In this document: one piece after another, positions 4,636 through 26,628 of the stretch | Layout: each line of letters begins with the position of its first letter | Position numbering within the stretch: the stretch's first letter is position 1 | Assembly: GCF_019132845.1 (NCBI RefSeq) | Contig: NZ_JAHSPR010000008.1 | Location: forward strand, 1-64,000 | DNA: 64,000 nt | DNA from: Advenella alkanexedens | GTDB taxonomy: Bacteria; Pseudomonadota; Gammaproteobacteria; Burkholderiales; Burkholderiaceae_B | Direction: 5' to 3' | Program-made: the position numbers and the translations under genes | Notes under the pieces: model-generated | Database searches by the model: none | The model's input: the letters and a program-made list of their open reading frames with translations, nothing else | What the model was told of the DNA's origin: nothing

Positions 4636-5244
4636 AAAATTAATTCACAATCATCGCATACGAGCTTTTCCGACGCTCTATTCTCCGGTACCAAACAAAG
4701 GGTACTGGGGGTTTTATTTGGTCAACCCAATCGTAGCTTTTACTCAAACGAATTAATCAATTTGGCTTCCAGCGGTTCAGGTGCCGTTCAACGAGAATTA
4801 GCCTCATTGGCAAATAGTGGCCTGATTACGGTAAAAATGGTTGGCAATCAAAAACATTACCAAGCGAACCATGACTCCCCCATCTTTGAAGAACTATGTT
4901 CAATCGTTCAAAAAACCATTGGCTTGGCTGACCCACTTCGTAATGCCCTTCAACCCTTGGCTGCTCAAATAATCGCTGCCTTTGTTTATGGTTCTGTTGC
5001 CAAAAAAACCGATACCGCCAACAGTGATATTGACTTGATGCTAATCAGTAATGAAATCAGTTATGGAACGCTTTTTTCCTTATTGGAGGAAACCAGTCAA
5101 TTACTGGGGCGTTCGGTAAACCCCACTATTCTAAGCCAGGAAGAATTCAATAAACGCCTTGAAAATCAAGAGTCTTTCTTAACACGAATACTGGAACAGC
5201 CAAAAATCTGGATCATGGGGGAAAGCAGTGACCTTGGCATTTAA
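4627..5244 (+). CDS. wHTH-nucleotidyltransferase (MNT-type) regulator
   Basis: The predicted protein joins an N-terminal winged helix (FSDALFSGTKQRVLGVLF, then NELINLASSGSGAVQRELASL) to a minimal nucleotidyltransferase domain. The latter shows G122-S123 and D134/D136 in the GSVAKKTDTANSDIDLM motif. Such proteins resemble the MNT antitoxins that modify HEPN toxins. The start at 4627 was chosen because it lies just after the predicted transcription start; a TTG start at 4588 would sit in the -35 box. The 3' end overlaps a short remnant that looks like the start of a HEPN-type partner (5228-5284), so the gene now stands alone. Family assignment is firm; an antitoxin or autorepressor role is inferred. 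Confidence 0.8.
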   Translation: MGLKINSQSSHTSFSDALFSGTKQRVLGVLFGQPNRSFYSNELINLASSGSGAVQRELASLANSGLITVKMVGNQKHYQANHDSPIFEELCSIVQKTIGLADPLRNALQPLAAQIIAAFVYGSVAKKTDTANSDIDLMLISNEISYGTLFSLLEETSQLLGRSVNPTILSQEEFNKRLENQESFLTRILEQPKIWIMGESSDLGI

Positions 5245-5284
5245 GAACCTGTCAGGCCCAGGCAAGCCCCGAAGTTTTGTGTGA
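5228..5284 (+). pseudogene. Truncated 5' end of a HEPN-like partner gene
   Basis: A GTG overlapping the nucleotidyltransferase gene opens a frame reading VTLAFKNLSGPGKP and then leaves homology, stopping at 5282-5284. The same start is repeated at 6569 and runs further there (GKPLRAEPPDKKEI). From memory, homologous loci continue as a helical HEPN-type protein of over 100 residues. Only the first 14 or so codons survive. Confidence 0.5.
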
Positions 5285-6290: not shown

Positions 6291-6297
6291 TTTACTA

Positions 6298-6585
6298 CGA
6301 GTCTTTCCGACGCCCTCTTCTCCGGTACCAAACAACGGGGGCTGGGGATTTTGTTCGGCCAACCTGATCGCAGCTTTTACTCCAACGAATTAATCAATTT
6401 GGTTTCCAGCGGTTCGGGTGCTGTTCAACGAGCTTGGCTTCCGAAATAACGGCTGCCTTCGTCTATGGTTCTGTTGCCAGGAAGAATTCCATAAACGCCT
6501 TGAAGATCAAGAATCTTTCTTAACACGAATACTGGAACAGCCAAAAATCTGGATCATAGGAGAAAGCAGTGACCTTGGCATTTGA
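6298..6585 (+). pseudogene. Decayed second copy of the wHTH-nucleotidyltransferase gene
   Basis: The DNA repeats the 4627-5244 gene closely (SDALFSGTKQR, LFGQPDRSFYSNELINLVSSGSGAVQR, then AAFVYGSVA, then EFHKRLEDQESFLTRILEQPKIWI). Two internal deletions and a frameshift have removed about half of it, including the DxD catalytic segment. The upstream palindromic operator of the intact copy is not present. It records a tandem duplication of the locus, now broken, on the far side of higBA. Confidence 0.8.
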
Positions 6586-6679
6586 GAACCTGTCTGGCCC
6601 TGGCAAGCCATTACGGGCAGAGCCTCCTGACAAGAAAGAAATTGTTGCGGAAAAACTGGATACATTGGAGCCATTGTAG
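6569..6679 (+). pseudogene. Truncated HEPN-like partner of the second copy
   Basis: A GTG-started frame reads VTLAFENLSGPGKPLRAEPPDKKEIVAEKLDTLEPL and stops at 6677-6679. The first 13 residues nearly match the stub at 5228, and more of the N-terminus is kept here. The remainder is replaced by unrelated sequence leading into the comC-like gene. Confidence 0.5.
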
Positions 6680-6704
6680 TTATCTTAACTTCGTGTCCAG
6701 AAAA

Positions 6705-7715
6705 TCAAACCTTCTCCGCTGCTTGATAGCCCATCTCCATCAGCAAACTGTCTGGAATTTCCACCCCTTCATCTTTTGCTGTATTTGCCAAGTCATGACG
6801 GCGGGCGCCAGGAAGACGTACGCCATTCTCTTCCAACATCGCAAGAATCAAACTTTCAAAGCGATCAAAGTAAACTTGCTCTCCAGCCAGTGCTTGCGGA
6901 TCTATCAATATAAATACTTGACCCAACATCGGCTTGTTCCCAACCTCATCATAAATAGGATCGGCCTCAAAGCCAAATTTTGCGCCGGTTAACGCTACGC
7001 AAAGCACCTCTACCATCATGGCCAGCATGGCGCCCTTTACACCGCCTGCTGCCTGCATGCTACCTTTAAGGGCGGCCTTGGCATCATTGGTGGGTTGCCC
7101 TTCGCTATCCAGGGCCCAACCATCAGGTATGGGTTTGTTGTCTCGGGCGGCCAGTATGACTTTGCCGCGCGCTACCTGTGATAAAGAAAGGTCTATCATG
7201 ACCGGGGCAGATTGCATACGCGGAAAAGCAGCGGCAATGGGGTTCGTACCAAACAACGGCCGTTTACCACCCCATGCAGGAATTGCAGCCGGAGAGTTAC
7301 TAAATGCCAGTCCAATCAGATTCTCTTGCGCAACCGGCTCAAGATGATAAGCGGCCACTCCAAAGTGGTGGCTATTGGTTACTCCTGCTATGCAAATACC
7401 GGTTTGTTTTGCCTTTTGTATGGCAGAAGAAATGGCCAATTCACAAGCAGGGAATGCCAGTCCTGTACCCGCATCAACCAATACCGCAGATGCTTTTTCT
7501 CGTACAATGCGGGGTTCTGCAGCTCCATCGGCACGTCCCGAAGATAAATGCTGTGCATAACAGGGAACACGCGATACGCCATGCGTTGCAATACCATGCG
7601 CATCGGCAAATACCAAGGCATTGGCCGTGGATGTCGCCATTGAGGCATTCGCGCCTGCAGCAGCCAGGGCTTCCTGTGCCAATTTCGTTAACTCAGAAAG
7701 TGAAACTGTTGTCAT
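6705..7715 (-). CDS. comC: Ldh_2-family dehydrogenase, second (R)-sulfolactate dehydrogenase copy
   Basis: This 336-residue protein belongs to the malate/L-lactate dehydrogenase type 2 family (NAD(P)-dependent, non-Rossmann) and keeps the SHHFG active-site histidines. About nine in ten residues match the comC gene at 20319-21320, so it should reduce sulfopyruvate to (2R)-sulfolactate or the reverse. The start at 7715 is set by AAGGA eight bases upstream, conserved in both copies. Its C-terminus has three extra residues (EKV). A remnant of slcC sits just upstream in the same order as in the main cluster, so this is a duplicated operon fragment. The frame is intact; whether it is expressed is unknown. 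Confidence 0.8.
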   Translation of the reverse strand: MTTVSLSELTKLAQEALAAAGANASMATSTANALVFADAHGIATHGVSRVPCYAQHLSSGRADGAAEPRIVREKASAVLVDAGTGLAFPACELAISSAIQKAKQTGICIAGVTNSHHFGVAAYHLEPVAQENLIGLAFSNSPAAIPAWGGKRPLFGTNPIAAAFPRMQSAPVMIDLSLSQVARGKVILAARDNKPIPDGWALDSEGQPTNDAKAALKGSMQAAGGVKGAMLAMMVEVLCVALTGAKFGFEADPIYDEVGNKPMLGQVFILIDPQALAGEQVYFDRFESLILAMLEENGVRLPGARRHDLANTAKDEGVEIPDSLLMEMGYQAAEKV

Positions 7716-7740
7716 ACCATTGATCCTTACTATCATTATT

Positions 7741-7836
7741 TTAAGAAAAATATCCAATCACTGTTTGTGCAATCACGTCTAACACCCTTTTATTGGCCTC
7801 TTCAGTTAATCCGGCAATATGCGGGGTTAATATTGA
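7741..7836 (-). pseudogene. slcC: 3' remnant of slcC ((S)-sulfolactate dehydrogenase)
   Basis: The frame reads ILTPHIAGLTEEANKRVLDVIAQTVIG and matches the C-terminal end of the slcC product at 21344-22273, with the same spacing to the following comC gene (25 versus 23 bp). Everything before the catalytic histidine region is lost; an ATG at 7873-7875 opens a 44-codon chimeric frame of no likely function. Confidence 0.8.
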
Positions 7837-8645
7837 CAGGCCCCCGATAGGGCCATCAACAAGGGCTGCCACCATAGCATCAATCCAAACATATGCAAGC
7901 CATTACCTCCTACAAACAATGGGTAATATTTATAGGCTGAAAAGTGATTTGTTTTGATCCAGGTTAATCTATATACTGGTCTGTCCTGATGTCAATATAT
8001 CAAACCACATTTCACATATAGTTGCTGCATGTCACGCTTCATTTTGTTAATAAAATTCAGTAGTCTAATTTTATTATTACCCGCGGTATCAACCAAGGCA
8101 CTTAATTTGCACGCCACCAAATATCCCGGAAGATGGACATCCGCATCCCGTGCGCCTTATTCGGCCAATCAATCCATTTCAGACTGAATTTTTCTATAAA
8201 ATTCAGGTCAAGTCCCTTGACGATCGCCCCCGCTGTTACCAGGCGTCGTTTTGTAGTGTCGCCATGGAATCCTGCCAACAAAAGGTAATATTCAAAGATT
8301 GAAAAGTGATTGGTCAACTGGCCTTTATCCTGGTTAACCCAGTGTGGTGGCTGCATCTGCGGCTGTCATTCAGCCCAATCAGAAGATCATCCGTTCTGCC
8401 TATCGCTTGCAAACAGCCAAATACTTGAAAACTTGCTTGTTTGCGCTCCTTGGTTAGTCCAGCTAGTGTCTAACATTCGGAGCGCAGTTCAAAAAAATAC
8501 TTTATCAAATACCGCGTTTATGAATACGATTACAGTAAATTAAAAGGCAGCACGCATTGATAAGTAATAAGAACGTCCTGGTTCATTATTTCTCTGGAGA
8601 GGGCTTCAATATTGTGAACACCAGTACATATTAAATTCAGCAAAA
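7837..8645. other. Gene-poor decayed stretch with diverged direct repeats
   Basis: No convincing gene was found. Two blocks resemble each other: GGTAATATT...TGAAAAGTGATT...CC(A/T)GGTTAA at about 7920-7967 and about 8284-8335. On the minus strand both can read NHFS..(E/K)YY, so they may be remains of one coding sequence. An 84-codon minus frame (8102-8356) covers one block but has no recognisable family. A short rloB relic lies at 8386-8417. Confidence 0.5.
8386..8417 (+). pseudogene. Relic of an rloB-like gene
   Basis: About 32 bp (ATCCGTTCTGCCTA...GCAAACAGCCAA) match the rloB gene at 11148-11179 at all but two positions and encode the same RSAYRLQTA. Homology does not extend far on either side. 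It implies a second, lost copy of the RloA/RloB locus or a local rearrangement. Confidence 0.6.
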
Positions 8646-15872: not shown

Positions 15873-16461
15873 TACTCACCTTTAATCCTTAATACTTATG
15901 TTTATTTCCATGAGAAATGTTTTTGATTTAAAACTGAGGGACAAGCTTAGTAGTGTTTTCCCAAACACGTCTAATACCATAAAGATCCGAATCCATACCT
16001 TTAAGATATAAGTTAACTATTCAGCATAAAAATCAAGTATTTATATTGATAGTTGGATTTTGAATACAGGGTTAACACTAACCTCCCTTGATAAGATAGT
16101 TGTCACCCCGTAGCAACCTTCGACGCTCTGCATGAGAACCAGGAACTACTGCACACTCATACCAGTTCCCACGCAGGAGCATGGGAACCAGGAAGTTCCC
16201 ACGCAGATTAAGGCTCCCACGCAGGAGCATGGGAGCCAGAAAAAAACCAACAGAAGCTTCCCATTTGTTGTTTTACCCAATGAAGCGCAAAAATCCAGTT
16301 AAAATCAAACAAACTCTGACAAACGTCTGTAAAGACACGGTATTATCATTGATACAACAACAAACAACCTATAGCCCAATACCAAAACCATTTACGCATA
16401 CTAAAAACATAAGCAAACGCATACCAACAACATAGTCAAATTCAACCCAATAAAAACCTTC
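15873..16461. other. Intergenic region with IS end and REP-like repeats
   Basis: About 590 bp without a gene separate divergent transcripts. It holds the minus-strand promoter region of the dehydrogenase, a solo IS3-type end (GATAGTTGTCACCC at about 16094-16107), two REP-like palindromes and degenerate copies (16126-16237), and AT-rich DNA before galU. Confidence 0.6.
16165..16237. repeat. Two tandem REP-like palindromes
   Basis: GTTCCCACGCAGGAGCATGG (from 16165) and GCTCCCACGCAGGAGCATGG (from 16213) are hairpins of the GTTCCCACGC family with slightly different arms, separated by a third half-copy. The second keeps its pairing by a compensated change (GCTCCC/GGGAGC), which suggests selection on structure. 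Confidence 0.65.
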
Positions 16462-17337
16462 ATGATTAAAAAAGCCATTCTTCCCGTTGCCGGTTTAGGT
16501 ACCCGTTTTCTTCCTGCCAGTAAATCCATTCCCAAGGAAATGGTAACGGTGGTAGACCGCCCTGCCATTGAATATGTGGTCAAGGAAGCGGTTGAAGCGG
16601 GGATTGAACAGATTATTCTGGTCACCCATTCGGCCAAAGCCTCTATTGAAAATTATTTCGACCGCAATTTCGAGCTTGAAACCACGCTGGAACAGAAGAA
16701 AAAATTTGATATCCTGAAGGAGATCACCGATATCCTGCCTCCCAATGTCAGCGTGATCAGCGTGCGCCAGCCCCAGCCTCTGGGCCTGGGACATGCGGTT
16801 TTATGCGCCCGGGCGGTTACCGGCAATGAGCCGTTTGCCGTGCTGTTGCCCGATGTACTGGTTAAAAACGCGTCTGGCAAGAATGACCTGGCCTTGATGA
16901 TTCAACGCTTTGGCCAATCTGCGACTGCGCAGATTATGGTCGAGTCGGTGCCCCAGGATATGGTGGACCAGTACGGGATTGTGGATGTTGCCAGTTCCCC
17001 TGCCGAAGGTGAAAGCATTGAAATGCAAGGTATTGTCGAAAAACCTCCTGTGGGTACAGCCCCTTCCAACCTGTCAGTGGTGGGGCGCTATGTATTGCCG
17101 GCGCGCATCATGCAATTGCTGGCGGTTACCCCAAAAGGGGCCGGCAATGAAATCCAGCTGACTGACGCGATTGCCCTGTTGCAAAAAGAAGAAACCGTTG
17201 AAGCCTATCGCATGAAGGGGCAAACCTTTGATTGCGGCAGCAAGCTGGGCTATTTGAAAGCGGTGCTGCATTACGGGGTGGAACACCCTGCTTTGGGTGA
17301 AGACTTCAAAAGCCTGATTAAAGCGCTGGCAATCTAG
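16462..17337 (+). CDS. galU: UTP-glucose-1-phosphate uridylyltransferase
   Basis: This 291-residue cytoplasmic enzyme makes UDP-glucose from UTP and glucose 1-phosphate for surface polysaccharide. Signatures are AILPVAGLGTRFLPASKSIPKEM near the start, the LPDVLV metal-binding region, GIVEKP, and KGAGNEIQLTDAI. Length is normal. It is the first gene of an operon with the Ugd-like gene (38-bp gap) and pgi. Confidence 0.93.
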   Translation: MIKKAILPVAGLGTRFLPASKSIPKEMVTVVDRPAIEYVVKEAVEAGIEQIILVTHSAKASIENYFDRNFELETTLEQKKKFDILKEITDILPPNVSVISVRQPQPLGLGHAVLCARAVTGNEPFAVLLPDVLVKNASGKNDLALMIQRFGQSATAQIMVESVPQDMVDQYGIVDVASSPAEGESIEMQGIVEKPPVGTAPSNLSVVGRYVLPARIMQLLAVTPKGAGNEIQLTDAIALLQKEETVEAYRMKGQTFDCGSKLGYLKAVLHYGVEHPALGEDFKSLIKALAI

Positions 17338-17375
17338 GCGCTTAATCCCTGACAGGACTGGAACAGGAAGAACCA

Positions 17376-18629
17376 ATGAAAGTGGCCATTTTCGGAAAAA
17401 CGCTTTACGCCGGGGTGATGGCGGCCCTGCTTGCCGAGTGCGGGCATCAGGTGTTTTGGTGTGATGCCAGGCAATATGAGCTGTTCAGGCAGCATTTCCC
17501 TGATGAAAGCGTTAACCGCTTGCTGGAAAAGCAGTTTGCCAGCGGTTTTCTGGCGTGTAGCGATATTTCCACCCTGCCGCTGGATATCGACGTGTATTTT
17601 TTCAGTTTCAGTCCTGCGGAAGAAGCCGCCGGCCTGGCACTGTTGCATCAGCTGGCGCAGCGAACGATCATTCACCCCAAGCTCATGATTAATGCTTCTA
17701 CCCTGGGTCTTCATGGCACCAGCCGGCTCAGGCAGGTATTGCCCGGCGATGACTGGATTTATCTGCCCGATATTATTCAGGAAGGCCAGGCGCTGAACAG
17801 TTTCTCGCAGGTAACGCAGCTGATTGTGGGCTGTACCGAGGCAACCGTACAAAAAAAAGTGCGTGAATTTTTACGTCCGCTGTTCCCCCGCGAGCAGCAG
17901 TATTTGTTCATGCCCGTGCTGGATGCCGAATTCACCAAGTTAAGCATTTCAGGCATGCTGGCTACCCGCATTAGCTATATGAATGACCTGGCCGTTGTCG
18001 CTGAAAAGCTGGGCATCGATATTTCCCATGTGCGCCAGGGCATGGCGGCAGACAGCCGCATTGGCGCCGCTTATTTGTACCCCGGTGCCGGGTTTGGGGG
18101 GGATAATTTCTCTCATGATATTTTAACCCTGTCCGATGCCGTGTCTGATACCGGGGTAAAAAGCCGACTGCTGGCGCAGGTGTGGGAGATTAACGAGCAG
18201 CAAAAAGAATTGCTGTTCAGAAAACTGTGGAATTATTATCACGGTGAACTGGCGGGTAAAACAGTGGCCATTTGGGGCGCCTCATTTAAAGAAAATACAT
18301 CCAATGTGCAGCAGTCACCGGTTCATGTCATGTTAAAGGCCTTATGGGCCCAGGGTGTGACGGTAAAACTGCACGACCCGCAGGCCTTGCCTGAAATCGC
18401 GGCCATTTACGGGCAGCGTGATGATTTGGTGTTGTGCAACGACCAATACGAGGCCGTGCAGAATGCGCATGCCCTGTGTTTGCTGACCGCCTGGAAACAG
18501 TACTGGAGCCCCAATTACAAGTATTTGCTTCAGCATATGCAGCATCCCCTGGTGCTGGATGGTCGCAATATTTATGACCCCGAGTATGTCAAGGCGCAGG
18601 GCTTTGCCTATATGGGGGTAGGAAGATAA
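17376..18629 (+). CDS. UDP-glucose dehydrogenase-like protein lacking the catalytic cysteine
   Basis: This 417-residue protein has the three-domain layout of UDP-glucose 6-dehydrogenases (N-terminal NAD domain, central helix with K188 in [20 protein letters not shown]-terminal UDP domain with [17 protein letters not shown]). Key residues differ: the usual GFGGSCFPKD is [10 protein letters not shown], so the catalytic Cys is N244 and the following Lys is H247. The N-terminal GxGxxG is replaced by GKTLYAG. A normal oxidation through a thiohemiacetal therefore looks impossible. The gene sits between galU and pgi with a 1-bp overlap to pgi and keeps a clean frame, so it is maintained. It may be a regulatory pseudoenzyme or catalyse a different reaction. 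Confidence 0.75.
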
Positions 18630-20314
18630 TGAGTCACCGTATTCAACGTTTGCCACTTAACGATACCCAATCCGTGCTGGCCGGTTTAACCGAAGCCGGC
18701 CAACAGTTCCAGTCGGTTCATTTGAAGGATTTGTTCGCCCAAGATGCAGAACGTTTCACACGTTTTCATGTGCGGTTTGATGAGGTTGTGTATGATTTCA
18801 GCAAACACCGCCTTGACCGGAAAGTGCTGAACCGTTTGATTGATTTTGCAAATGCCCAGGATTTATCGGGCTGGATCAAGCGGCTGTTTTCTGAAGAAGC
18901 CATTAATTACACCGAGCAGCGCAGCGTGATGCACTGGGCCTTGCGCCTGCCCCAAAATGATACCCGCCATCCTGTGCTGGCCCGGCAGGTTCATGCGCAA
19001 TTGCAGCGCATGTTTGCCCTGGTTGAAAAGATTCATGCGGGCCAATACCGGGGTGCGACCGGCGAGGTAATCCAGGATGTGGTGAATATCGGCGTGGGCG
19101 GCTCAGACCTGGGGCCTTTGATGGCCTCACATGCCCTGGCCGATTTCAGGCAGGCAACGGTCAAACCGCTCAACATGCATTTCGTATCCACCATGGACGG
19201 CAGCCAGCTGTCTGAACTGCTGCACCGGCTGCGCCCGGAAACCACCCTGTTCATTATTTCCTCCAAGTCGTTCAGCACCATCGACACACTGTCCAATGCG
19301 CAAACCGTGCGTTTGTGGCTGGAAAAAGCCCTGGGGCAATACGCGCAGGTGTTGCGACACCATTTTGTGGGTGTTTCCACCAAACCTGAAAAGATGACGG
19401 CCTGGGGCATCGCCCCCGAAAACCAGTTCCTGCTTTGGGATTGGGTGGGTGGACGTTATTCTTTATGGTCTTGCATTGGCTTGCCGATTGCCCTGACCAT
19501 TGGAGTGGAAGGTTTCCGGCAGTTTCTGGCGGGCGCACATGCTATTGACCGGCATTTCCAAACCGCGCCTTTTGCACAAAACATTCCTGTATTAATGGGA
19601 CTGATTGGCGCATGGAATAATAATTTCCTGGATATCCAGACCCATGCCATGCTGCCTTATGATGGCCGGCTGAAGTATTTTTCTTCTTATTTGCAGCAGC
19701 TGGAAATGGAGTCGAATGGCAAATCCGTTCAGCGCAACGGCAAAGCGGTCAACCTTGACACCTGCCCGATTATATGGGGCGAAGTCGGCCCCAATGCCCA
19801 GCATGCGTTTTACCAGTTGCTGCACCAGGGTACGCATGCCGTCAGCTGCGATTTCATTGCCCCGGTTAAACGCTATAACGCCAACCAGTTTACCTATGCC
19901 GAAAATGCCGAGGCCCTGGTGGCGCAGCACCACCTGGCCCTGTCCAACTGCCTGGCCCAGTCCCGATTACTGGCATTTGGCAACCAGGCGCTGGGGGCTG
20001 ATGCCCTTGAATCATTGCCCGCTTACAAGCAATATGAAGGCAACCAGCCCAGCAGCACGATTTTGCTCAACGAACTCAGTCCGTACAGCTTGGGCATGCT
20101 GATCGCGATGTATGAGCATAAGGTGTTTGTACAATCAGTCCTGTGGAACATCAACCCGTTTGACCAATGGGGCGTGGAAAAAGGCAAGGAAATTGCCAAC
20201 CAGCTGCTACCCTTGCTGAATGGTGAAGGCGGCAGCCTGGACGGCCTGGATGCCTCCACCCGGGGGCTGATTGAGGTTCTTCAGACTCGTTCCCACGCTC
20301 CCGCGTGGGAATGA
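18629..20314 (+). CDS. pgi: Glucose-6-phosphate isomerase with altered C-terminus
   Basis: This 561-residue enzyme interconverts glucose 6-phosphate and fructose 6-phosphate. Signatures include [44 protein letters not shown] and [21 protein letters not shown]. It overlaps the upstream gene at TAATG. The last residues after LIEVL ([10 protein letters not shown]) are encoded by a REP-like palindrome at 20290-20311. A second copy of the pgi 3' end at 25894-25975 finishes as LIEVLRG and probably shows the ancestral tail. Confidence 0.93.
20209..20278 (+). repeat. pgi 3'-end direct repeat, left copy
   Basis: These 70 bp recur at 25894-25963 with four mismatches. The two copies flank the whole sulfolactate cluster. 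The left copy belongs to the functional pgi gene. Confidence 0.85.
20290..20311. repeat. REP-like palindrome inside the pgi 3' end
   Basis: TTCCCACGC (20290-20298) and GCGTGGGAA (20303-20311) form a 9-bp stem with a TCCC loop, directly before the pgi stop. It lies between convergent pgi and comC and may act as a two-way transcription barrier. Confidence 0.7.
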
Positions 20315-20318
20315 TACC

Positions 20319-21320
20319 TCAAGCGGCCTGATACCCCATCTGCATCAATAAACTATCCGGAACATCCACCCCTTCACTGGTGGCGATCTTTGCCAGGTCA
20401 TGACGGCGGGCGCCAGGAAGGCGTACGCCATTATCTTCCAGCATCGCCTCAATCAGGCTTTCAAAACGGTCAAAGTAGGTCTGCTGCCCGGCCAGTGCTT
20501 CAGGGTCGATCAAGATAAACACCTGCCCCAGCCTTGGTTTATTCCCCACATCATCGTAAAGAGGGTCGGCTTCAAAACCAAAGCTTGCACCGGTTAAGGC
20601 AACACACAACACTTCAACCATCATGGCCAACATGGCGCCCTTTACACCGCCAACCGCCTGCATGCTGCCTTTAAGTGCGGCCTTGGCATCATTGGTGGGT
20701 TTGCCCTCGCTATCCAGGGCCCAGCCATCAGGAATGGGTTTATTGTCCCTGGCCGCCAAAATAACTTTGCCGCGTGCCACCTGCGATAAAGAAAGGTCTA
20801 TCATGACCGGCGCAGATTGAATGCGTGGAAAAGCGGCTGCAATGGGGTTGGTACCAAACAATGGCCGTTTACCGCCCCATGCCGGAATGGCGGATGGAGA
20901 ATTGCTGAAAGCCAGTCCAATCAGGTTTTCCTGTGCGACCGGTTCAAGATGATAGGCAGCCATACCGAAATGATGGCTGTTGGTGACGCCCGCAATACAA
21001 ATACCGGTTTGTTTCGCTTTTTTTATTGCCGAAGCAATCGCCAACTCACAGGCGGGGAATGCCAACCCGGTACCCGCATCAACCAGAATGGCGGAAGCCT
21101 TTTCTTGCACAATATTGGGTTCTGCATTACCGTCGGCACGGCCTGAAGACAAATGCTGCGCATAACTGGGCACCCGCGATACGCCATGGGTGGCAATGCC
21201 CTGGGCATCCGCAAATACCAAAGCATTGGCCGTTAAGGTTGCCATTGAAGCATTCGCCCCTGAAGCAGCCAGGGTATCCCGTGCCAATTGGGTTAATTCA
21301 GACAGTGAAACTGTTGTCAT
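20319..21320 (-). CDS. comC: (2R)-3-sulfolactate dehydrogenase
   Basis: This 333-residue Ldh_2-family oxidoreductase has SHHFG (115-119), H45 in GIATHGVSR and GTNPIAAAFP. In sulfolactate degraders ComC interconverts sulfopyruvate and (2R)-sulfolactate. Here it lies after slcC (23-bp gap), and the suyAB lyase genes are on the same strand, so this function is the best fit. The start at 21320 is preceded by AAGGA at 8 bases; an upstream ATG in MNGMTT is less likely. A near copy is found at 6705-7715. Without the context it would only be called a malate/lactate-type dehydrogenase. Confidence 0.85.
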   Translation of the reverse strand: MTTVSLSELTQLARDTLAASGANASMATLTANALVFADAQGIATHGVSRVPSYAQHLSSGRADGNAEPNIVQEKASAILVDAGTGLAFPACELAIASAIKKAKQTGICIAGVTNSHHFGMAAYHLEPVAQENLIGLAFSNSPSAIPAWGGKRPLFGTNPIAAAFPRIQSAPVMIDLSLSQVARGKVILAARDNKPIPDGWALDSEGKPTNDAKAALKGSMQAVGGVKGAMLAMMVEVLCVALTGASFGFEADPLYDDVGNKPRLGQVFILIDPEALAGQQTYFDRFESLIEAMLEDNGVRLPGARRHDLAKIATSEGVDVPDSLLMQMGYQAA

Positions 21321-21343
21321 ACCATTCATCCTTATCAGGCTTA

Positions 21344-22273
21344 TTAAGCAAAATGCCCAATCACTTTCTGTGCAATAACGTCTGAAACCCGCTTGTTGGC
21401 TTCCTCGGTTAAGCCTGCAATATGTGGGGTTAATAATAAATTGGGTATCACCGGCAGACAGTTACCTGGCTTTACCGGTTCATCCTCAAAAACATCCAGT
21501 GCGGCACCACGCAGTTTACCAAGCTTCAGCGCCTCTACCAAGGCTTGCTCATCAACAATCCCGCCCCTGGAACTATTAATTAATACAGCTTGCGGTTTCA
21601 TTAGTGAGATTCGTTTTTCATTGATTAAATGACGTGTTTCGGATGTTAATGGTGTATGCAGGCTCACCACATCACTGTGCTGCAGCAACTCATCCAATGA
21701 CATGCGTGTTGCCCCGGTTTCACGCCAGACAGGACTGTCCACCCCGATCAAAGGATCATAGGCAATAATTCTCATACCCAGCGCCCTGGCAAGACTGGCG
21801 GTTAACCTTCCTATGCTGCCAAAGCCCACCAATCCCATGGTTCGGCCCGCACATTCCAGGCCATTGCTCAACCGCGTACGAGGCCACTTACCTTCCACTA
21901 TTTGCTCGCTGGAATGATAAGCGCCCCGTAGCAATATGAAAGCGCTGGCAATCACATACTCAGCCACCGCTTGGGCATTGGCCCCGTAAGCCGGATAAAC
22001 GGTAATACCTTTTTCTTCACACAACTGAAGATCAATATTATCCAGGCCCACCCCCAACCTTCCCACCACCTTCAGTTGCGGGGCATGCTCCAGCAATTCC
22101 CGGTTGACCTGCGTCCTGTTACGTACGATAAGGACACGGGCATTGGTCAAAGACTGAAAAAGGGTTTCACGTTTATCGACAAGATCCGGGCGGTAATCAA
22201 CCTGTGCCTTCTCGCGCAGGCAATCCACGGCGGTATCGTCCATAAATTCAGAAATAACAATAAGGTGGCTCAT
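21344..22273 (-). CDS. slcC: (S)-sulfolactate dehydrogenase
   Basis: This 309-residue D-isomer-specific 2-hydroxyacid dehydrogenase carries the NAD fold GLVGFGSIG (147-155), catalytic R236 in NSSRGGIVDE, E265 in DVFEDEP and H284 in LTPHIAG. SlcC oxidises (S)-sulfolactate to sulfopyruvate with NAD, which ComC then reduces to the (R) form. The pair thus acts as a racemase ahead of SuyAB. Neighbours on the same strand support this. A C-terminal remnant of a second copy lies at 7741-7836. Confidence 0.85.
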   Translation of the reverse strand: MSHLIVISEFMDDTAVDCLREKAQVDYRPDLVDKRETLFQSLTNARVLIVRNRTQVNRELLEHAPQLKVVGRLGVGLDNIDLQLCEEKGITVYPAYGANAQAVAEYVIASAFILLRGAYHSSEQIVEGKWPRTRLSNGLECAGRTMGLVGFGSIGRLTASLARALGMRIIAYDPLIGVDSPVWRETGATRMSLDELLQHSDVVSLHTPLTSETRHLINEKRISLMKPQAVLINSSRGGIVDEQALVEALKLGKLRGAALDVFEDEPVKPGNCLPVIPNLLLTPHIAGLTEEANKRVSDVIAQKVIGHFA

Positions 22274-22291
22274 AATAATTATATGCAGTCG

Positions 22292-23290
22292 TTAATTAAC
22301 TTTAATATCGGCATCTTTAATGGTTTTGGACAAGGCCTGGATCTGTTCATTCAAATACGTTTTGAACTGATCGGACCCCATTGGGTCGGGAATAAAGCCC
22401 AGCTTGACCAGCTGCTCACCGATTGCCTTGTCACCCACAACCTTGACAACACGATCACTGATTTCCCTGACCAAAGCGGGATCAGTGCCTTTGGGTGCCA
22501 GCAAGCCGGTAAAGTTGTCCACCTTTAATCCAGGCAAGCCCGCCTCTGCCGTCGTGGGCACATCCGGAACGGCCGGTGCCCGCTGGTCTGATGTCACGGC
22601 AATCGCCCGCAATTTACCCTGTTGCACGTATGGCAGGGATTCCGGGTAATTAGAGAAGACCACATCCAGCTGACCACCAATTAAATCCACCATGGATGGC
22701 GCACCGCCTTTATAAGGAACATGCGTCATTTTCGTGCCAGTCAGGTCCTGAAACAAGGCCATGGCAATATGGGGAGGTGTTCCGGTACCGCTGCTGCCCA
22801 CATTCAGGGTTTTCTTTTGGGCCGTATCAATCAGGTCCTGCAGGGTTTTGATAGGGCTATTTTCCGGCACGACCACCATAATTGCCGAAGACGCAATTTT
22901 TGCAACGGGGACAAAGTCTTCTTCAACATCATAGCCGGCCTTTTCCCCAAACAGGGTTTTATTAACAGCATGTGTCATGGTAATGGCCAACCAGGTTGTA
23001 CCATCCGGTTTTGCACGCGCCGCCTCGGCGGCACCCAGGTTGGCATTGGCGCCGGCTTTATTGCTGACAACAATATTCCAGCCCGTTTTATCGCCAATCC
23101 CCTTGGCCATCATGCGCGCGGCAACATCGGTCAAACCACCCGGCGCAAAGGGAACAATATACGTAATATACTGGGTCGGCTTCCAATCGGCGTGTGCCAC
23201 GGGTGCCAGCAGCGGACTGGCGGCACAGAAAACTGATAATACTCCAAACTTCAACATCCTTCTTTTTGTTACATTAAAACAATGCTTCAT
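22292..23290 (-). CDS. Bug/TctC-family periplasmic receptor, likely for sulfolactate
   Basis: This 332-residue protein has a Sec signal (MLKFGVLSVFCAASPLLAPVAHA) and the family blocks ITYIVPFAPGGLTDVAAR, NKAGANANLGAAEAARAKPDGTT and HVPYKGGAPSMVDLIGGQ. Bug proteins bind carboxylates for tripartite TctAB transporters or for sensing. Placed between suyB and slcC, its ligand is probably sulfolactate, comparable with the Slc tripartite transporter of other degraders. TctA and TctB are not in the window. GGAGGAGA precedes the start. Confidence 0.87.
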   Translation of the reverse strand: MKHCFNVTKRRMLKFGVLSVFCAASPLLAPVAHADWKPTQYITYIVPFAPGGLTDVAARMMAKGIGDKTGWNIVVSNKAGANANLGAAEAARAKPDGTTWLAITMTHAVNKTLFGEKAGYDVEEDFVPVAKIASSAIMVVVPENSPIKTLQDLIDTAQKKTLNVGSSGTGTPPHIAMALFQDLTGTKMTHVPYKGGAPSMVDLIGGQLDVVFSNYPESLPYVQQGKLRAIAVTSDQRAPAVPDVPTTAEAGLPGLKVDNFTGLLAPKGTDPALVREISDRVVKVVGDKAIGEQLVKLGFIPDPMGSDQFKTYLNEQIQALSKTIKDADIKVN

Positions 23291-23354
23291 GGGGTGTCTC
23301 CTCCACGAGTAGGATTAATGGCCGGTTTGTTTTTTTATGAACCGGCCCTGAAAA

Positions 23355-24530
23355 TCAGGCACTTTCGAATAAGCGAGTCAATACGAATTCACGATGGCCA
23401 AGCGCTTCAGCCGCTGTCCAACGGCCATTCGCCGTTTCCAGCATGCACTCAAGCAATTTATCGCCCGCCTGATCCAAATTGATTTCACGTTGCAAAAGTC
23501 CTGATGTATCCACATCTATATGTTCAGACATGGTTCTGACTGTGCGGGGGTTCGCACAAATTTTAATAACCGGCACAATGGGGTTGCCAATCACGTTACC
23601 TTGCCCTGTCGGGAAGAAATGCACCACATAGCCTGAGGCGGCACATAATGTGACCATTTCAGCAGCGGCTGAGGAGGAGTCCATAAACCAGAGTCCTTTA
23701 CCGGTGGGCATTTCCGCCTTGTCCAGAACGCCATCCACAATACATTTTTTACCAATCTTCTGAATATTGCCCAGCGCTTTTTCTTCAATGGTGGTCAAAC
23801 CGCCGGCAATATTGCCCTTCGTTGGCTGAGACTCGGACAGATCCGAGGTTTTCCAGCGGTTGATCATGTCCTGGTAACGGTTAAACATGAACATGAAGTC
23901 TTCACGCACTTTATCATTGGCACATCGTGCCGCAACGATTTGTTCACCGCCCGTTAATTCAGAGGTTTCGCCAAACACCAGCGTATTGCCATTGGCATAG
24001 AGCTTGTCAAACGCATCGCCTACCGTCGGATTTGCCCCGCATCCTGACGTCGTGTCTGACTCACCGCATTTGGTGGATACCCACAATTCGGAAACCGGGC
24101 ATTCTTCTCTTCTCAGGCTGGTGGCATAGTGCACAAATTCTTTAGCCTTTTTGGATGCACGCATGATGGTGTCATGATCGCCATGCATTTCAATGCTGAA
24201 TCCGGCGACCGGCTTACCGGTGACGGCTATGGCATCCACAATTTTCTTGGTCCAGCCTTCTTCAATACCAATCACGATAACCGCTGCCACGTTCGGGTTA
24301 CAGCCCGTGCCAATCAGGGTACGGAAATGCAAATCCAGATCGGCACCAAACTGAAGGCGGCCATAAGGGTGAGGCAAGGCAAGGGTTCCTTTGATATTGT
24401 TGGCAACCGCCTCAACTGCCGCATTGGAAATATCATCCACGGGAAGAATGATGACGTGGTTACGGACCCCTACCCGTCCGTTGTCTCTTCTGTAACCATA
24501 AAAAGTGGTATTTGAATCAATAATAGCCAT
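23355..24530 (-). CDS. suyB: (2R)-sulfolactate sulfo-lyase, large subunit
   Basis: This 391-residue protein of the UxaA (altronate dehydratase) family has [22 protein letters not shown] at the start and [30 protein letters not shown] and [21 protein letters not shown] further on; the cysteines are typical of the metal site. Together with SuyA it splits (2R)-sulfolactate to pyruvate and sulfite. suyA is 68 bp upstream. No sulfite dehydrogenase or exporter gene follows in the window, so sulfite disposal must be coded elsewhere. Confidence 0.92.
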
Positions 24531-24598
24531 TGTAAATTCCTGGTAAATATGTCTATAAAAAATAGAATGAGATGAACAGCGAAGTCAGTCGGGATTGA

Positions 24599-24880
24599 TT
24601 ACCAACGCTTGGTTTTGATGTTATGCACATGAGCGTGGTCGCCCGCCCTGATGGGCGCCACCACCTTGCCAATGTCCACGCTGTACTTGAACACCGTGTC
24701 ACCTTCTTTCATGTCTACCAAAGCCACTTTATGACCAATAGGAATATCCTGTGTGGCCTTGACGGAAATGATTTTGTCTTCTTCCATATTCCAGCAGCTA
24801 AGTTCCGTACCCGCCGTTATCCCCTCTACCACGGCAACCGCTACGGTATCTTTTGAATCATGCAATACGGCATGGATCAT
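24599..24880 (-). CDS. suyA: (2R)-sulfolactate sulfo-lyase, small subunit
   Basis: This 93-residue SAF-domain protein (MIHAVLHDSKDTVAVAVVEGI, then IPIGHKVALVDMKEGDTVFKY and a VAPIRAGDHAHVHNIKTKRW end) is the small subunit paired with SuyB. The start at 24880 has AAAGGAG six bases upstream; an in-frame ATG at 24901 has no such site. It is the first gene of the minus-strand sulfolactate operon, divergent from the GntR regulator. Confidence 0.92.
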   Translation of the reverse strand: MIHAVLHDSKDTVAVAVVEGITAGTELSCWNMEEDKIISVKATQDIPIGHKVALVDMKEGDTVFKYSVDIGKVVAPIRAGDHAHVHNIKTKRW

Positions 24881-24981
24881 TGTCTTCTCCTTTAATTTCA
24901 ATTGAATAAGCAGTGCTTGAATCGACTTACCTTTAGGATAGATAAAACATTTTTCTGAATTTTTTATCTACTGTTGAAATA

Positions 24982-25122
24982 ATATTAATCATATTAATCA
25001 TATAAGTCAACTAAATCATCTATATGAATTTTTTAGTGTTAGAATTACGCATCTGCCCATGGAACCAACATTCCGTCCGTGATACCATCGCTTAAACAAG
25101 TTACATTTTGATCTATATGAAT
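24982..25122. promoter_or_regulatory. Divergent suyA/gntR control region with repeated sites
   Basis: In the gap between suyA and the regulator, ATCTATATGAAT occurs twice in direct orientation (25018-25029 and 25111-25122). The second copy covers the regulator's own ATG. Next to the first is a tandem ATATTAATC repeat (about 24982-24999). These are plausible operators for the GntR protein, giving control of the operon and autorepression. Binding is inferred from position only. Confidence 0.5.
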
Positions 25123-25848
25123 AAAAAAAATTATTTCGTTCCGGGAACACCGCTATACTTTGCTGTCAAGCAATCATTACTGGCATCACTGGCAAGTGGA
25201 GAGTGGGTCAGGGGCGAAGCCATTCCTCCAGAAAACCAGCTTGCAAAGAAATTTGGTGTCTCTATCGGCACACTGCGCAAAGCCGTTGATGAACTGGTCA
25301 AGGAACATATTCTGGTCCGTCACCAGGGACGCGGCACATTTGTGGCCACGCAAGAAAGTGACCAGCATTTTTTCAGGTTTTTCCGCATCCAGCGCCGGGA
25401 CGGCCTCAAGTCCTATCCTGTTACACAGCTTCTGAAATTCCAGAAAAAAAAGGCGTCCAAAGAAATCAGGGAGCAGCTTCAATTAGCCAAAGATGCCTAT
25501 ATTTTTGAGTTTTTCAATTTACTGAGTCTGAATGATGACCTGGTCATGATTGATGAAATCCAGGTTCCCGAGAATCTGTTTTCCTCTCTGACAGAGAAAA
25601 GTTTAGCCGAGCGCTCAAGCACGCTTTATAATTTTTATCAGAATAATTTTGGTGTGAATGTGATTGATACCAAAGAAAAATTAATCACTTGCCAAGCCAA
25701 CAAAGACATTGCCGCCTGGCTGCAAGTACCCGAAAATACCGCCCTGCTGCAAATTAACCGTATTGCCTATACGTATAATGAAAAACCGGTAGAGTTGCGA
25801 CAATCCTATGTCAATACTGAAAAATACGAATATATTGCCAAGGAATGA
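25117..25848 (+). CDS. GntR/HutC-family regulator of the sulfolactate operon
   Basis: This 243-residue protein has an N-terminal winged helix (GEAIPPENQLAKKFGVSIGTLRKAVDELVKEHILVRHQGRGTFV) and a C-terminal UTRA ligand domain ending in LQINRIAYTYNEKPVELRQSYVNTEKYEY. It is divergent from suyA and inside the repeat-bounded cassette, so it is the likely local repressor that responds to sulfolactate. ATG 25117 was chosen over TTG 25108. Confidence 0.87.
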   Translation: MNKKNYFVPGTPLYFAVKQSLLASLASGEWVRGEAIPPENQLAKKFGVSIGTLRKAVDELVKEHILVRHQGRGTFVATQESDQHFFRFFRIQRRDGLKSYPVTQLLKFQKKKASKEIREQLQLAKDAYIFEFFNLLSLNDDLVMIDEIQVPENLFSSLTEKSLAERSSTLYNFYQNNFGVNVIDTKEKLITCQANKDIAAWLQVPENTALLQINRIAYTYNEKPVELRQSYVNTEKYEYIAKE

Positions 25849-25863
25849 CCTGGTGAGTGAAAC

Positions 25864-25890
25864 GGTTCCCACGCACAGAGCGTGGGAACC
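25864..25890. repeat. REP-like palindrome at the right edge of the sulfolactate cassette
   Basis: GGTTCCCACGC (25864-25874) and GCGTGGGAACC (25880-25890) form a perfect 11-bp stem with a 5-base loop. A half copy (CCGCGTGGGAATGC) follows at about 25983-25996. It mirrors the palindrome at 20290-20311 on the other edge. Confidence 0.75.
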
Positions 25891-25893
25891 AGA

Positions 25894-25975
25894 ACCCTTG
25901 CTTAATGGTGAAGGCGACAACCTGGACAGCCTGGATGCCTCCACCCGGGGGCTGATTGAGGTTTTGCGGGGATGA
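25894..25975 (+). pseudogene. pgi: Duplicated 3' end of pgi
   Basis: The frame reads [26 protein letters not shown] and a stop. It matches the end of pgi at 20209-20278 in 66 of 70 bases but ends with RG rather than the REP-encoded tail. It directly abuts the stop of paaY. It looks like the original pgi terminus, displaced by about 5.7 kb. Confidence 0.85.
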
Positions 25976-25977
25976 GT

Positions 25978-26628
25978 TCACTCCGCGTGGGAATGCATAC
26001 CCGCAGACACGCCCGCATCCTGCTTCAAGCGGGCAATAAACAAAGGGTCATATTTGGGTGCACGAACCCGCTTCCGGTTGGCTTCCGGCCGGGTTAATGG
26101 TTCGGCCACCTGCTTCGTACTGTTCCTGGATTCCAGCGCAAGCCGCTGGTAAACCAGGGTGCCTTCACGCTTCCAGGCTATTTCTTCCGGTTTTAATGGT
26201 CGCACGACACTGGCAGGAGAGCCCAGTGCCAAATGGCCGGCTGGAATTTCCATGGAAGCCTTTAAAAAAGACATGGCACCAATGATGGCGTTTTCACCAA
26301 TCACCACCCTGTCCATGACCACGGAGTTCATGCCTACCATTGCATTTTTACCTACCCGACAGCCATGCAATATCGTGCCATGACCAATATGGCCTTCTTC
26401 TTCCACAAGCACTTCAGCATCAGGAAAACTGTGTGCCACGCAGTTATCCTGAAAATTTGCGCCCGCCAGCAACTGGATACGGCCAAAATCACCACGCAAT
26501 ACGGCGCCCGGCCCCACATAGCAGGCCGGACCAATCAGTACATCACCAATCAACGTGGCTGCAGGATGGACATAAGCAGAAGGATCAACAACAGGAATCA
26601 CACCATCAAAAGAAAAAATCTGAGCCAT
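25978..26628 (-). CDS. paaY: PaaY, gamma-carbonic-anhydrase-fold thioesterase
   Basis: This 216-residue left-handed beta-helix protein has hexapeptide repeats: GDVLIGPACYVGPGAVLRGDFGRIQL, NFQDNCVAHSFPD, HIGHGTILHGCRVG, VGMNSVVMDRVVIGENAIIGA. PaaY hydrolyses the toxic ring-opened CoA ester from stalled phenylacetate degradation. Histidines in NCVAH and the HIGHG/LHGC region provide the metal site. It is last in the paaA-E operon. The start at 26628 follows GGAGG ten bases upstream. Confidence 0.9.
   Translation of the reverse strand: MAQIFSFDGVIPVVDPSAYVHPAATLIGDVLIGPACYVGPGAVLRGDFGRIQLLAGANFQDNCVAHSFPDAEVLVEEEGHIGHGTILHGCRVGKNAMVGMNSVVMDRVVIGENAIIGAMSFLKASMEIPAGHLALGSPASVVRPLKPEEIAWKREGTLVYQRLALESRNSTKQVAEPLTRPEANRKRVRAPKYDPLFIARLKQDAGVSAGMHSHAE

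Follow-up and report, generated by a model that had tools for sequence, protein, structure and literature searches.

Sulfolactate genes between two REP palindromes and a duplicated 3′ end of pgi in Advenella alkanexedens

Genes and repeats at the pgi 3′ end

This report concerns the 3′ end of pgi, the gene for glucose-6-phosphate isomerase, in Advenella alkanexedens, where a block of putative sulfolactate genes stands between two repetitive extragenic palindromic (REP) sequences and between two copies of the last part of pgi. The stretch analysed, referred to as the window, holds 64,000 nt (positions 1 to 64,000 of contig NZ_JAHSPR010000008.1), and the genome from which it comes (G000) is 2.99 Mb in size. 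A search of the genus gave 10 genomes including G000, with the nine others serving as the comparison set for the pgi locus; G002 among them is A. faeciporci. Two types of REP are distinguished, under labels that are our own: type A consists of CTCG, a hairpin and mostly TGCATA, and type B of TCTGG, a hairpin and mostly CC or CG, the CTCG or CTGG end being written CTSG where both are meant. The locus has the following features, given in window coordinates with the strand:

18629..20314, +, pgi (glucose-6-phosphate isomerase), from its open reading frame (ORF) and profile matches; the last residues lie in or beside a REP, and relatives end in LLG or FLG
20209..20278, +, left copy of the duplicated pgi 3′ segment (repeat D1)
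20285..20318, +, REP of type A, CTCG end towards pgi; 29 nt of it are 100% identical at 3 other places in G000
20319..21329, −, comC-like gene, Ldh_2 family dehydrogenase, putative (R)-sulfolactate dehydrogenase; best NCBIfam match NF040650, 228 bits against a cut-off of 500
21344..22273, −, slcC-like gene, D-2-hydroxyacid dehydrogenase, putative (S)-sulfolactate dehydrogenase, named by context only
22292..23290, −, tctC, TctC-type solute-binding protein (PF03401)
23355..24530, −, suyB, putative sulfolactate sulfo-lyase large subunit (UxaA family); 85% to a Cupriavidus pinatubonensis protein, 94% to five genus genomes
24599..24889, −, suyA, putative small subunit, start codon placed by eye; 74% to a C. 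pinatubonensis protein, no Pfam match
25117..25848, +, gntR, GntR/UTRA regulator; 74-76% to regulators adjoining suyAB in six genus genomes
25864..25893, −, REP of type B from the palindrome scan, CTGG end towards the right pgi tail
25894..25963, +, right copy of the pgi 3′ segment, starting 1 nt from the CTGG end of the REP; native stop at 25973-25975
25976..26001, +, decayed REP after the right pgi tail, decayed type A by eye, coding for the last paaY residues
25978..26634, −, paaY (TIGR02287, 264 bits against a cut-off of 320)

The two copies of repeat D1 are 70 nt long, identical at 66 of 70 positions and 5685 nt apart from start to start. A further 13 direct-repeat families in those 10 kb have copies of 20-30 nt with 67-83% identity and are taken as chance matches, without significance computed. 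The initial annotation of this stretch had reported a 70-bp piece of the pgi end, with 66 matches, on both sides of the sulfolactate block, and repeat D1 bears this out. The ORF translations likewise agree with its description of a right copy with an ancestral-type tail and a working pgi that ends in a REP: the right copy reads LIEVLRG followed by a stop, and the left pgi ORF runs into the palindrome.

The same annotation had spoken of matching palindromes at both edges of the block. There is indeed one at each edge, and both belong to the same genome-wide family, but they are not identical, the left having the loop TCCC and the right ACAGA, and their CTSG ends point in opposite directions. 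The block is thus bracketed by one REP of type A and one of type B with the CTSG ends outward, and the same types in the same orientation are found around the gene for the REP-associated tyrosine transposase (RAYT) of G000. Beyond the right pgi tail, the C-terminus of paaY reads GVSAGMHSHAE, partly from the decayed REP, where G002 and G005 have GLP; the end of the protein is ...DAGVSAGMHSHAE in the window and ...DAGLP in those two genomes. On the predicted translations, REP sequence now supplies the C-termini of both pgi and paaY.

REP palindromes, their transposase and copied flanks

The palindrome TTCCCACGC-loop-GCGTGGGAA is present in 43 exact copies in G000, 13 in G002, one each in G004 and G005 and none in the six other genomes, while the CTSG-ended half reaches 62 exact copies in G000. 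A GT[AG]G foot is not the rule: one end is CTSG, and the other is GTATGCA or GTAGGCA in many copies of type A. The RAYT gene of G000 (C11:485737-486210; NF047646, 95-96 bits against a cut-off of 80) has one REP of type A and one of type B beside it, with the CTSG ends outward. A search of 399 genomes of the order, including G000, gave two other RAYTs with E-values of 1e-25 or better; they are 87% and 57% identical, and TTCCCACGC palindromes flank each of them. On sequence grounds, G000 encodes a RAYT that is cognate to its REPs. A Y1 transposase with a TnpB-like partner at C11:115326 (IS605 being our own label) was considered as a RAYT and rejected, as there is no REP beside it.

REPtron/RAYT (TnpAREP) systems (PMC2817692, PMC8266576, PMC6006769) share with G000 the inverted REPs that flank the transposase gene and the cognate REPs that are commonest in the genome with the RAYT. 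Unlike in those systems, the REPs of G000 end in CTCG or CTGG on one side and are without a regular canonical GT[AG]G foot. Some classes of RAYT are reported to have atypical REPs (PMC6006769).

Flank duplications form a series in G000, and that of the pgi tail is the only member seen with an operon inside. The search for direct repeats (45-400 nt, within 12 kb) covered 893 kb of this genome, comprising a long run on C11 (103 half-cores in 415 kb), other pieces (111 in 400 kb) and the window together with its neighbouring piece (18 in 78 kb). Of the 19 repeats detected, 13 have both copies at REPs; bases within 60 nt of a REP half-core make up 1.7% of this sample. The 3′ end of mutS stands in three tandem units of tail and REP, without cargo, at G000:C15:234661-235077 (L277 14661-15077), and ubiV (U32 peptidase family) has two copies of its 3′ end, 110 nt at 91%, around a REP array at G000:C14:67940-68299 (L271 17940-18299). 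By eye, the other REP-linked repeats are flanks outside genes. None of the 13 repeats in 462 kb of pieces from G002 and G005 (44 half-cores) was REP-linked, and neither was any of the two in 499 kb of pieces from large genomes (12 half-cores).

Furthermore, a census of junctions was made at 102 REP ends, in which the outer flank beyond the CTSG end was matched to the other side within 7 kb. A duplicated outer flank was found at 14 of the 102 ends. When the REP end nearest to the copy is taken, there are seven junctions, with gaps to the CTSG end of 0, 1, 1, 2, 3, 5 and 15 nt; the right pgi copy is one of the two 1-nt junctions, and six junctions including pgi lie at 0-5 nt. Of the remaining seven ends, one is the left side of pgi (7 nt) and four belong to a single C11 locus with 29-nt matches; the others are second REPs in the arrays at ubiV and C14:348. 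The same series of junctions was recovered from 88 near-intact hairpins, and reversed flanks at the census score gave no match at any of the 102 ends. A target resembling the REP end, located in the gene where the duplication starts, was considered and rejected: pgi has CTGGTT, but the best scores at the seven junctions (5-7 of 10) are at background level.

The sulfolactate block and the locus in related genomes

SuyA and SuyB are both present in the block, their putative activity being assigned by similarity only. The comC- and slcC-like dehydrogenases fit their Pfam families, with scores below the curated NCBIfam cut-offs. In C. pinatubonensis, the homologues of SuyB and SuyA are encoded two genes from hpsO and hpsN, which supports the sulfolactate reading of the block, and a TctC-type binding protein is found near suyB and suyA there as well. 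Unlike the C. pinatubonensis region, the window has suyAB together with comC- and slcC-like genes and a GntR regulator. The cargo is an ordinary-looking operon that probably serves to convert sulfolactate into pyruvate and sulfite. The earlier remark that no integrase is visible holds for the ORF list: between 20319 and 25848, where ORFs of at least 90 aa comprise the six genes and overlapping frames, there is none in the list, no integrase hidden Markov model having been run.

At pgi, the sulfolactate block is absent in all nine other genus genomes compared. Six of the nine have suyB elsewhere, far from pgi, and three have none. In the six larger-genome Advenella, gntR-suyA-suyB-tctC-slcC are found together, with comC elsewhere. 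The C-termini of comC in the genus genomes, compared with a view to possible truncation of comC by a REP, are YQ, YE or YQAC. In G008, suyB is split into two frames (G008:C1:3995088-3996259), by a frameshift or a sequencing error.

Relative to G003, the five cargo genes show 73-94% amino acid and 70-81% DNA identity, against 67-85% amino acid identity for nine other orthologue pairs, so that the block has the look of a native of the genus. On the same values, its recent import from a large-genome Advenella is not favoured. An earlier comparison of orthologues with G003 (15 pairs, median 34.5% amino acid identity, mostly paralogues) was left unused for the import question. Between G000 and G002, 46 orthologue pairs have medians of 95.8% amino acid and 91.4% DNA identity.

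The window contains one more piece related to the cargo:

6705..7832, −, second comC copy with about 100 nt of the slcC 3′ end; 81.5% DNA identity to 20323-21435

We read this copy as a remnant of another sulfolactate cluster. The stretch with the comC copy and the slcC stump (6683-8579) is, over 1,897 nt, 99.5% identical to A. faeciporci, above the 87.5, 93.1 and 97.2% of three other stretches shared with that genome, which suggests a recent exchange. By eye, the copy stands among transposase-like ORFs. Duplicated pieces of an ORF with a nucleotidyltransferase domain are found at 4659-5268 and 6296-6609 of the window.

The pgi type of the window occurs in four genomes, G000, G002, G004 and G005. 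In the last three, pgi ends intact, in LLG or FLG and a stop, without the sulfolactate block. In G004 pgi is followed by dnaJ, in G005 by a TctC gene; in G002 only 195 nt of contig remain past the aligned pgi, with an end that by eye is like an insertion sequence. In G002 and G005, paaY is located on other contigs, adjoining an acyltransferase of the LpxL/LpxP family (the family being taken from the G005 copy). No close paaY was found in G004, where the best match has 34%, and the acyltransferase neighbour was not found in G000 or G004, the sole match in G000 being the paaY edge itself. As for the empty pgi-paaY site in relatives of which the initial annotation spoke, the block is absent at pgi and the pgi end is intact in three of them, but there is no clean empty site, because paaY is elsewhere in G002 and G005. 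A. faeciporci has additional pieces of pgi, namely a partial second pgi (G002:C28:6708-7833, 82%) and a degenerate end fragment (G002:C20:634-895, 77%).

Relatives differ in blocks bounded by REPs. In A. faeciporci, a segment of about 2.5 kb (L130 1356-3858) with genes for cytochrome b561, a dihaem cytochrome c and DUF1924 stands between REPs on the upstream side of galU, some 2.4 kb ahead of the start of pgi, and the counterpart in the window (16155-16222) holds only REPs. The genes galU, nucleotide-sugar dehydrogenase and pgi are grouped at 16462-20314 of the window, a set that resembles an Acinetobacter capsule locus. Among the pgi matches listed, the best after A. faeciporci are those of Acinetobacter, up to 79%, so pgi may have been acquired.

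Origin of the arrangement at pgi

With a confidence somewhat above even, we read the locus as a tandem REP cluster at the pgi 3′ end, with the block comC-slcC-tctC-suyB-suyA-gntR lodged between two outward REPs. According to this model, REPs with outward CTSG ends would have arisen where pgi ends, and a segment of some 70 nt of that gene would have been duplicated across them, with the copy joined directly at the REP end. At pgi we infer this step, and duplications of such anatomy recur in G000, as at mutS and ubiV. Its agent could be the resident RAYT, with single-stranded REP DNA as the substrate, or a polymerase that slips at the hairpin. Subsequently, the six-gene block would have entered between the two REPs, most simply, and probably, via REP-REP recombination. 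Which step came first, where the cargo copy came from and which enzyme was at work we likewise infer.

In PMC8266576, TnpAREP is reported to cut REP DNA in single-stranded form, at a CT on the 5′ or 3′ side of the hairpin, and the spread of REPs is described as poorly understood. A cut at the CT beside the hairpin would fit a junction close to the CTSG end. Slippage at the hairpin would equally place the junction near the hairpin base, and the junctions do not separate it from a RAYT cut. In Pseudomonas fluorescens SBW25, tandem REPIN clusters including a REP pair with duplicated flanks have been described, and it was suggested that insertion of DNA into a REPIN can yield singlets (PMC3116915). 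Tandem units with duplicated flanks are likewise present in G000. Unlike in the SBW25 clusters, some flanks in G000 are gene 3′ ends, one REP pair stands 5.6 kb apart with an operon inside, and the palindrome and the RAYT are different. In the passages of the REP literature consulted, gene-tail duplication at REPs is not described, the nearest being the SBW25 clusters with their duplicated flanks.

Several points weigh against the REP cluster reading. The G000 pieces outside the window were mostly picked for REP richness, and the repeat census therefore does not sample the genome fairly. The 13 REP-linked repeats amount to about ten places, three with less than 45 nt outside the palindrome. 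The seven junctions were selected from 14 matching ends, the remaining gaps being 7, 27, 33, 42, 67, 87 and 88 nt, and two of the seven are at mutS, possibly with one history. At the same cut-off, random positions gave 5 matches in 430, the best with a score of 260, above any REP end; ordinary repeats also pass the cut-off of the junction census. In G330, whose RAYT is the one 87% identical, none of 13 repeats in 400 kb was REP-linked, with only 17 half-cores in that sequence. The outward arrangement is found in 2 of 11 neighbouring REP pairs 400 nt-10 kb apart, the second being that of the RAYT, and alone it is not significant. Among the genomes compared, the pgi-paaY junction is present only in G000, and no ancestral state is visible. 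As to the block being at home in the genus, suyB (94% amino acid identity to G003) lies above the 67-85% range of the nine orthologue pairs, from which 22 further reciprocal pairs at 24-55% had been set aside as likely paralogues. Finally, no REP pair other than that at pgi was seen to enclose an operon, and the step of block entry is therefore argued by analogy.

Alternatively, the block could have entered the pgi end in a single insertion, at a staggered break or by an integrase since lost, the 70-nt repeat then being a target duplication or an attachment (att) site. The geometry of pgi tail, block and pgi tail fits such an event, as does the absence of the block at pgi in the nine other genomes, yet the ORF list of the block has no integrase, similar repeats lie around REPs without a block, and a target duplication of 70 nt is, by general knowledge, beyond the usual range of insertion sequences; we consider it unlikely. 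The initial annotation had come close to this view, with its proposal of a cassette inserted at, or duplicated with, the pgi end. The absence of the block in relatives is in line with this, but the tail duplication need not be the scar of a cassette, since mutS (three copies) and ubiV (two) are duplicated at REPs without one, most with the same junction position. An integrase-type island was rejected as the leading explanation, with no integrase seen and similar repeats at REPs without an island; a direct repeat at a gene 3′ end, one of the criteria for islands, is present here (70 nt), yet similar repeats are found at REPs without islands.

It is also conceivable, with a probability that we put slightly lower still, that the block was in place downstream of pgi first, and that a later event copied the pgi tail, stop included, to the distal REP next to gntR. 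The copy begins 1 nt from the CTGG end of that REP, like the short-range copies, and it keeps the native stop, which would place its making before the left pgi end was damaged. On the other hand, the other six junctions join copies 78 to 266 nt from the original, and the gene after pgi in G004 and G005 is not comC. Transport of the whole 5.6-kb segment between the outward REPs by the resident RAYT, in the manner of an oversized REP pair, seems improbable: REPs of these types, in this orientation, do enclose the RAYT gene, but the 62 exact CTSG-ended REPs bracket no other gene block in this way, and the arrangement lacks significance. Equally doubtful in our view is the general proposition that the activity of RAYT-REP systems goes beyond the copying of REPs, with gene 3′ ends duplicated at a fixed position next to the REP and whole operons bracketed and relocated, in this case a sulfonate-degradation cluster in the form of an oversized REP pair.

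The repeat at pgi is better explained by a REP cluster than by a cassette, and the main value of the locus lies in the recurring copies of gene ends at REPs. Such repeats call for caution and are not to be taken for att sites. Several REP sites in G000 carry a copied gene tail or flank with a closely similar junction, which represents a testable signature of the reaction, and the locus illustrates how a gene end may become open to cargo through REPs, with no integrase involved.

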